From: Salinigranum rubrum
GTDB taxonomy: Archaea > Halobacteriota > Halobacteria > Halobacteriales > Haloferacaceae
Assembly (NCBI RefSeq): GCF_002906575.1
Contig: NZ_CP026309.1
Location: 434,001 to 498,000 of the forward strand
Length of the DNA stretch: 64,000 bases
Direction of reading: 5' to 3'
The notes under the pieces are model-generated. The model was not told where the DNA came from, made no database searches, and was given only the letters and a program-made list of their open reading frames with translations. Below, in pieces: positions 2,665 to 48,210 of this stretch (its first letter is position 1; each line of letters starts with the position of its first letter). Both the position numbers and the translations under genes were made by a program.

Positions 2665-2737
2665 GCCCGGATGGTGTAGTGGCCCATCATACGACCCTGT
2701 CACGGTCGTGACGCGGGTTCAAATCCCGCTCCGGGCG
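2665..2737 (+). tRNA. tRNA-Asp (GTC)
   Basis: Cloverleaf of 73 nt. Acceptor GCCCGGA (2665-2671) pairs with TCCGGGC (2730-2736), discriminator G. The anticodon GTC lies at 2699-2701 in loop CTGTCAC, and the T-loop is GGTTCAAATCC. CCA is not encoded. A short T run (2741-2744) follows and could stop transcription. A copy of its own 3' end lies about 145 nt downstream. Confidence 0.97.
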
Positions 2738-2758
2738 TCCTTTTGCGACGAACTACTC

Positions 2759-2886
2759 GGCGAGCACCGCGTAGCGTGTGCTCGCCACCTGTGAGTCGCA
2801 CAGACGCGATAACGGGAGTTGAACCAGAGCGTGGAGCGAACGAAGCGAGCGGAACGACCGTGGTTCACAATCCCGCTCCGGACAGT
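2759..2886 (+). repeat. tRNA-Asp tail element: hairpin, inverted T-arm and second copy of the tRNA-Asp 3' end
   Basis: Three parts are seen. (1) An 8-bp hairpin, GGCGAGCA 2759-2766 with TGCTCGCC 2779-2786. (2) GGGAGTTGAACCA at 2814-2826, close to the reverse complement of the T-arm, followed by the core GAGCGAACGAAGCGAGCG at 2834-2851. (3) TGGTTCACAATCCCGCTCCG at 2861-2880, a near copy of the tRNA-Asp T-arm and 3' acceptor strand with one inserted C; the 13 bases AATCCCGCTCCGG are identical to the tRNA. Parts 2 and 3 can pair into one long hairpin. The same layout follows tRNA-Phe, -Val and -Arg in this window. Function unknown. Confidence 0.75.
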
Positions 2887-40480: not shown

Positions 40481-40570
40481 ACCTCCCCTGCGTCCGTGTC
40501 TCACATAATCGTTCGTTTACAATAGGTGGTCGACGACGGTGGAGACGGGCTCACGAGTCGGGTGGTGTCG

Positions 40571-40703
40571 GTCGCCTCCCGGATTGTGAACTACGTCCGA
40601 GACCCTGCGCTCCGCGCAGAACCTCGGTCTAGTTCAAATCCGGTCGGGTCGCACTCACAGAACCCGCCGCGCTCGCTTCGCTCGGCGGTCGGGTTCAGAG
40701 AAG
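40571..40703 (-). repeat. tRNA-Phe tail element: long hairpin ending in a copy of the tRNA-Phe 3' end
   Basis: Read on the minus strand after tRNA-Phe: first a hairpin CCGCCG...CGGCGG with GAGCGAAGCGAGC inside (40664-40688). Next comes CCGGATTTGAACTA (40630-40643), an inverted T-arm. A central hairpin CTGCGC/GCGCAG follows, then GTAGTTCACAATCCGGGAGG (ending near 40571), a copy of the tRNA T-arm and 3' acceptor with one inserted base. The inverted and direct copies pair, so 40579-40643 can fold into one long hairpin. No gene lies in 40481-40703. Confidence 0.75.
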
Positions 40704-41213: not shown

Positions 41214-41339
41214 GGGGCTCGGGCGGATTCGAACCTCGCCCAGACGTGCTCGCTCACTCCGTTCGCTGTGCGCGACTGGTCTGGTTCGAACCACCCTCTC
41301 GTCACGAATTCGTGCTCGCTATCGCTCGCACAGAATTAG
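41214..41339 (-). repeat. tRNA-Val tail element with a 21-bp exact copy of the tRNA 3' end
   Basis: Bases 41215-41235 are identical to 41341-41361, the 3' acceptor strand and T-arm of tRNA-Val, an exact 21-bp direct repeat 126 bp apart. Between them lie GGTTCGAACCACC (41283-41295), a T-arm copy that is itself palindromic, the core GCGAACGGAGTGAGCGAGC (minus strand, about 41250-41268), and a long hairpin GTGCTCGC/GCTCGCAC with outer arms AATTC/GAATT (41308-41337). Confidence 0.8.
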
Positions 41340-48050: not shown

Positions 48051-48210
48051 CGTCCTGACGGAGCGTTGAACTCGCCGAGGCGGTCCTGCTCGCTCACTGC
48101 GTCCGCCGTGCGGGCTGCGACTCGTCTGCTCAACTCTCCGTGTTGCGTCAGCACCCTCGGCAGAGGCGAGTGACACGAATATCACTCGTCGTGTTGCCTC
48201 GGAAGAATGA
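48051..48210 (-). repeat. tRNA-Arg tail element with a copy of the tRNA 3' end
   Basis: 48051-48063 (CGTCCTGACGGAG) is identical to 48211-48223, the 3' end of tRNA-Arg, and the T-arm part continues with few changes (to about 48074). The repeat distance is 160 bp. 48128-48141 carries an inverted T-arm (GCTCAACTCTCCGT) that can pair with the copy. Between them, TGCTCGCTCACTGCGTCCGC (about 48088-48107) is homologous to TGCTCGCTCACTCCGTTCGC in the Val element. The neighbouring 47944-48050 holds no gene. Confidence 0.75.

Follow-up and report, generated by a model that had tools for sequence, protein, structure and literature searches.

Roughly half the tRNA genes of Salinigranum rubrum, and tRNA genes in nearly all sampled genomes of the archaeal order Halobacteriales, carry a structured appendix (hereafter tail) that has no Rfam family. 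Four elements make up a tail unit: a hairpin (hairpin 1), next an inverted T-arm, then a core, and last a direct copy of the tRNA gene's 3′ end. Tails bring together a fold that is conserved, a rapid exchange of modules and a cognate duplicate of the end of an essential gene. From sequence comparison we tentatively favor, with slightly less than even confidence, the explanation that tails are tRNA-anchored modular repeat arrays which are built and refreshed by recombination at T-arms and in which the folded strand, as ssDNA or RNA, is under selection.

The tail behind tRNA-Asp lies in the 64,000-nucleotide stretch of DNA that we analyzed (the window, C1:434001–498000 of the 4.97 Mb host genome G000), and its parts are listed in Table 1 together with three further tail units. 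The first-pass annotation of the window had described one and the same architecture behind tRNA-Asp and tRNA-Phe; all four elements are indeed found where it placed them, and the order hairpin, inverted T-arm, core and cognate copy recurs behind tRNA-Phe, tRNA-Val and tRNA-Arg(GCG) of the window. The Asp core contains the apical GC-GA-AC-GAA-GC-GA-GC stretch GCGAACGAAGCGAGC at 2836–2850, and R1, a covariance model of hairpin 2 built from 45 sequences, matches the tail at 2803–2884 (C1:436803–436884) with 71.7 bits. The copy, GGTTCACAATCCCGCTCCGGACA, equals the gene, GGTTCAAATCCCGCTCCGGGCG, in 20 of 22 bases and has one C inserted in its T-loop part. On its own tail the tRNA-Asp 3′ end scores 17, against a mean of 9.6 and a maximum of 12 for other tRNA 3′ ends placed there, and the 153-nt tail is more stable than shuffled sequences both as RNA (z −2.2) and as DNA (z −2.1).

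Table 1. Positions of the tRNA-Asp tail and of further tail units, numbered from the first letter of the window.
Feature	Position	Strand	Detail or basis
tRNA-Asp(GTC) gene	2665–2737	+	Rfam RF00005, ARAGORN
T-run (TTTT) straight after tRNA-Asp	2741–2744	+	sequence; probable terminator
Hairpin 1 of Asp tail	2744–2800	+	outer stem TGCGAC/GTCGCA, inner hairpin 2759–2786
Inverted T-arm of Asp tail	2813–2826	+	CGGGAGTTGAACCA
Exchangeable core of Asp tail	2827–2860	+	class A; R1 match
Cognate copy of tRNA-Asp 3′ end	2862–2884	+	T-loop to discriminator
tRNA-Phe tail unit	40570–40703	−	inverted T-arm 40630–40643, cognate copy 40570–40592
tRNA-Val(TAC) tail unit	41214–41339	−	class B core; inverted T-arm 41282–41296, cognate copy 41214–41235
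tRNA-Arg(GCG) tail unit	48051–48210	−	inverted T-arm 48127–48141, cognate copy 48051–48073

The phenomenon is much larger than the first-pass annotation described, extending over the genome and over the order. The annotation had proposed a genome-wide, controlled scan for cognate copies, and with the last 24 nt of the 46 host tRNA genes, 300 bp of downstream sequence and a threshold score of ≥15, such a copy is found at 20 of the 46 genes, far above chance (non-cognate pairs, 1.0%; upstream regions, 0 of 46). Its claim that the 3′ end found in a tail is that of the adjoining tRNA is borne out by the cognate score sum over the 46 genes, which amounts to 588 against 398 ± 12 in 100,000 permutations (largest 466). 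The acceptor part by itself (last 12 nt) gives 373 against 282 ± 7 permuted, and the inverted copy is likewise cognate, if more weakly so (427 against 382 ± 9). About 26 host tRNAs have tails, namely 22 at score ≥13, tRNA-Pro(CGG), which RF00005 misses, and three with displaced tails (Thr(CGT), Ala(CGC) and Trp), and the tail always stands in sense orientation relative to its tRNA. R1 matches in the host genome belong to the 3′ ends of tRNAs, some of these ends having been displaced by integrated elements, so the tail family, with non-tRNA loci judged from R1 and pattern matches, is not dispersed over the genome; a dispersed repeat was rejected as a candidate on this ground.

At several tRNAs units stand in tandem, with cores that differ, a constant cognate copy between units and cognate direct repeats flanking each unit. 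The units are short (mostly 70–160 bp) and gene-free, almost never carrying genes. Their cores fall into few classes that are common to unrelated tRNAs, and tandem arrays combine units of different core class; most cores hold an apical GC-GA-RC-GNA-GY-GA-GC hairpin, with a GA/GA pair at that place in 79 of 124 hairpins. The array behind tRNA-Gly(GCC) (L314, G000 C1:3249200–3251900) continues for 1.8 kb, and in its distal stretch two small ORFs, genes for a cold-shock-like small protein and a small membrane protein, lie between cognate copies. One-base insertions recur in the T-loop part of the copy at different tRNAs (TTCACAATCC, TTCGATATCC), the acceptor part still being cognate; they occur in the host copies at Asp, Phe, Gly(GCC) and Arg(TCG) and also in L106 and L125. 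A second kind of unit (L015, L016 and L317) has the motif reversed (CACTTCGTTC) and a copy without the T-loop.

The paired positions of the hairpins covary strongly. Across R1, 36 cells are altered on both sides of a pair, against 10.7 ± 2.6 in shuffles, and the class B stem is paired at 95 of 102 positions, against 55.2 ± 4.3 when shuffled. In 91 of 124 hairpins the fold of the sense strand is the more stable of the two (p = 8e-9, RNA energies), and the conserved tandem G·A pairs occur on one strand only; these two observations suggest a folded single strand, be it RNA or ssDNA. RNA and DNA energies both favor the sense strand in the 124 hairpins and so do not discriminate between the two, and the C(GNA)G apical triloop, which is extremely stable in DNA, leaves the choice undecided as well. 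The outermost arm pair is unpaired in 34 of the 45 hairpins, and pairing alone therefore does not explain the cognate acceptor match.

This folding also supports the main rival to our explanation, in which read-through of the terminator would yield a structured trailer RNA, comprising hairpins 1 and 2, that serves maturation, termination or a separate sRNA. Such an RNA would fit the sense-specific folding, the conserved tandem G·A pairs and the compensatory stems, as well as the invariable sense orientation and the conservation across the order, and in Haloferax volcanii two RNA 3′ ends, which may or may not fall in a tail, have been reported downstream of one tRNA-Pro gene (PMC7237163). However, TTTT follows directly behind many tRNAs, and most transcripts probably end before the tail. 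A trailer RNA would moreover leave unexplained the mostly unpaired cognate acceptor copy, the tandem arrays and the frequent core swaps, and the host retains tRNA-Ala(CGC) and tRNA-Thr(CGT) even though their tails now lie at distances of 17 and 65 kb. We therefore regard a functional trailer RNA as possible but somewhat unlikely.

Comparison of loci separates what is inherited from what is exchanged. Over 29 orthologous pairs, hairpin 1 is 0.67 identical, against 0.52 in non-orthologous pairs (p = 4e-8), and the core 0.67 against 0.61 (p = 0.02). By these identities hairpin 1 is inherited with the tRNA locus and the core hardly so, the latter being exchanged between the two T-arms. Thus, Gly(TCC) tails of different Salinigranum genomes have hairpins 1 that are 92% identical and cores of different class. 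L318 holds three tandem units with identical hairpin 1 and two different cores, the middle unit having the odd one, and the junctions of the swap fall exactly at the T-arms (GGGATTCGAA, core, TTCGAATCCC). The cognate end behaves otherwise. Among 80 named haloarchaeal tRNA-Asp loci, genes of CTCC type are accompanied by 30 CTCC and no CCTC copies and genes of CCTC type by 14 CCTC and no CTCC copies, so that all 44 copies that can be classified share the acceptor type of their gene, nine further copies being of neither type; in G001 the copy at Ser(GGA) likewise mirrors a change in its tRNA. On this comparative evidence the cognate end is local and the core mobile. The first-pass annotation had held that simple copying of one repeat between loci was ruled out, which stands for the cognate end and fails for the core, as core classes are common to unrelated tRNAs and cores are exchanged. 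Preservation favors the first copy over the second (18 versus 6, p = 0.02), a weak indication of array polarity.

Recombination at T-arms is the simplest account of these data because it covers both the local cognate end and the mobile core. It would run through the near-universal T-arm sequence GGTTCAAATCC, and cores would move between tRNA loci with both T-arms serving as homology, either by gene conversion or through a recombinase whose target is the folded single strand, similar to the use made of integron attC sites. The acceptor part could be kept cognate by recombination with the adjacent gene or by tandem duplication. The folded strand would be the substrate of exchange and the repeats mainly self-maintaining; the tRNA would stay intact, since loss of a unit via the direct repeats always restores its 3′ end. 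Several observations count against parts of this account. It leaves hairpin 1 without a role, no recombinase was identified at the loci collected, and core sequences are absent from IMG/VR. In the Gly(GCC) array a T-loop insertion is present in all three copies and absent from the tRNA, so these copies derive from each other, which speaks against fresh copying from the gene.

Among 293 Halobacteriales genomes with a completeness of 90% or more, 290 have an R1 match, representing 78 of 79 genera, a presence that exceeds that of most purely selfish repeats and counts against the self-maintaining part of the account. Matches occur in 34 of 40 relatives and, in a sample of the phylum, in 42 haloarchaeal genomes; none was found in about 203 Halobacteriota genomes of other classes. 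R1 scores of its own source sequences are high by construction, and the order-wide and outgroup scans constitute the independent test; outside the host, the matching sequence was inspected at a few loci and in G001 and G003. Named examples of the Asp tail come from Haloferax, Halorubrum, Haloarcula, Natrinema, Natronomonas, Halosimplex and Salinigranum, the tail being absent in both Haloquadratum walsbyi records (L101 and L119) and in several others, and three genomes of the same genus have tails on largely the same tRNAs. In Halorubrum sp. SD626R (L083) four tandem tRNA-Asp genes precede the tail.

This distribution bears on the proposal that tails are functionless by-products, 3′-end duplications that arose by slippage and unequal exchange and whose hairpins and uniform copies are due to template switching at quasi-palindromes and to gene conversion. 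Such an origin would be in keeping with perfect tandem duplicates (L316, L317 and L319, with identical 111-bp units at a tRNA-Lys in L316), with the concerted change of gene and copy and with the loss of tails in some genomes. It does not readily account for one architecture with conserved non-canonical G·A pairs and covariation at different tRNAs throughout almost all genera of the order, nor for the lack of any R1 match in the other Halobacteriota, where the T-arms of tRNAs are conserved as well. We consider it quite improbable that tails are by-products only.

The three displaced tails, those of Thr(CGT), Ala(CGC) and Trp, each adjoin a phage-type integrase gene (the Pfam match of the Ala(CGC) integrase lying below the curated cut-off). 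An integrase-bearing element of ~65 kb apparently sits in tRNA-Thr(CGT) and has pushed the tail off (L174, G000 C1:1173444; L003, C1:1238673); GGATTTGAACTCCGAGTTCAAATCC, a perfect palindrome, stands at its end, and the terminal copy of the displaced tail has ceased to be cognate. Another, of ~17 kb, sits in tRNA-Ala(CGC) (L183, C1:397966; L010, C1:415436), whose tail is displaced in G001 too (L208) and uninterrupted in G003. The neighboring integrase genes would agree with a link of the tails to tRNA-integrating elements, either as remnants, the copy being an att site that tyrosine integrases left behind, or as decoys, the copy drawing such integrases away; so would the extent of the copy, as the stretch from T-loop to discriminator is what many tRNA-targeting integrases duplicate. 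In all three cases, however, the tail has the element on its tRNA side, and the same-genus genome G003, from a sister species, has an uninterrupted tRNA and tail for both Ala(CGC) and Trp; on these two grounds the tails predate the insertions. A phmmer scan of the collected loci found integrases only at integrated elements, and at the loci inspected no element is inserted at a tail copy, on which ground a role as decoy att site was rejected. Tails as attP sites were considered as well, since the end of the Thr(CGT) element (inverted T-arm, 5 nt, T-arm) resembled a short hairpin 2, and were also rejected. The pattern of this attP-like palindrome has no match in the viral contigs of IMG/VR and is present in one of 59 genomes, that of the host, the 58 others being without it. 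Altogether, an origin of the tails as integrative remnants appears very unlikely.

We found no description of these tails in openly licensed papers, and several known systems resemble them in part. CRISPR differs in that the repeats of the tails are tRNA 3′ ends and the intervening stretches recurrent core classes. REP/BIME sequences and the PATE/SMR elements of Haloquadratum, short mobile elements (PMC3119063), are likewise short, non-coding and palindromic, but are dispersed, whereas tails are cognate and confined to tRNA 3′ ends. In Methanopyrus kandleri half the tRNA genes are followed, after ~10 bp, by a palindrome, CGTTA(N)9TAACG, which was reported as genome-specific and unexplained (PMC5217627); it resembles the tails in its position and in its frequency among the tRNA genes of an archaeon, and differs from them in being short and no copy of the tRNA. 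With tRNA-targeting integrative elements the tails share the duplication of the 3′ end from the T-arm on, but at the loci inspected no integrase gene lies within units or arrays. In tandem accretion of the CIME type, as in tails, the tRNA 3′ end recurs as att-like direct repeats between units; tail units, however, are short gene-free hairpins with a conserved fold, and the true integrative elements of the host insert in front of them.

Closer in structure are the rtT repeats (Rfam family RtT), which follow E. coli tyrT as tandem units downstream of the tRNA, its 3′ end being copied in every unit. Since repetition of a tRNA 3′ end behind the gene has a precedent in them, tails can be seen as a variant of a known theme. 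To our knowledge, rtT repeats are limited to few enterobacterial loci and have no inverted T-arm, no exchangeable core and no order-wide occurrence, and the haloarchaeal tail differs from them also in that the Asp tail region 2738–2960 gives no match to any Rfam family even at E ≤ 1. Tails provide a clean test case of whether T-arms are cellular recombination substrates and whether archaeal tRNA trailers are functional.

In manner of working, the nearest known thing would, by analogy, be the integron attC arrays. Both are anchored arrays in which a single strand folds imperfectly, with strand-specific mismatches, and in which a variable core stands between conserved arms. Tails have no linked IntI-type integrase at the inspected loci and their units are not gene cassettes, for which reasons we do not class them as an integron; their anchor, moreover, is the 3′ end of a tRNA. 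A bolder reading, which we hold to be unlikely, is that they represent an undescribed system of the Halobacteriales in which tRNAs would anchor arrays of folded ssDNA cassettes whose cores are swapped at the T-arms by dedicated recombination, and which would be the counterpart of the attC arrays of integrons.
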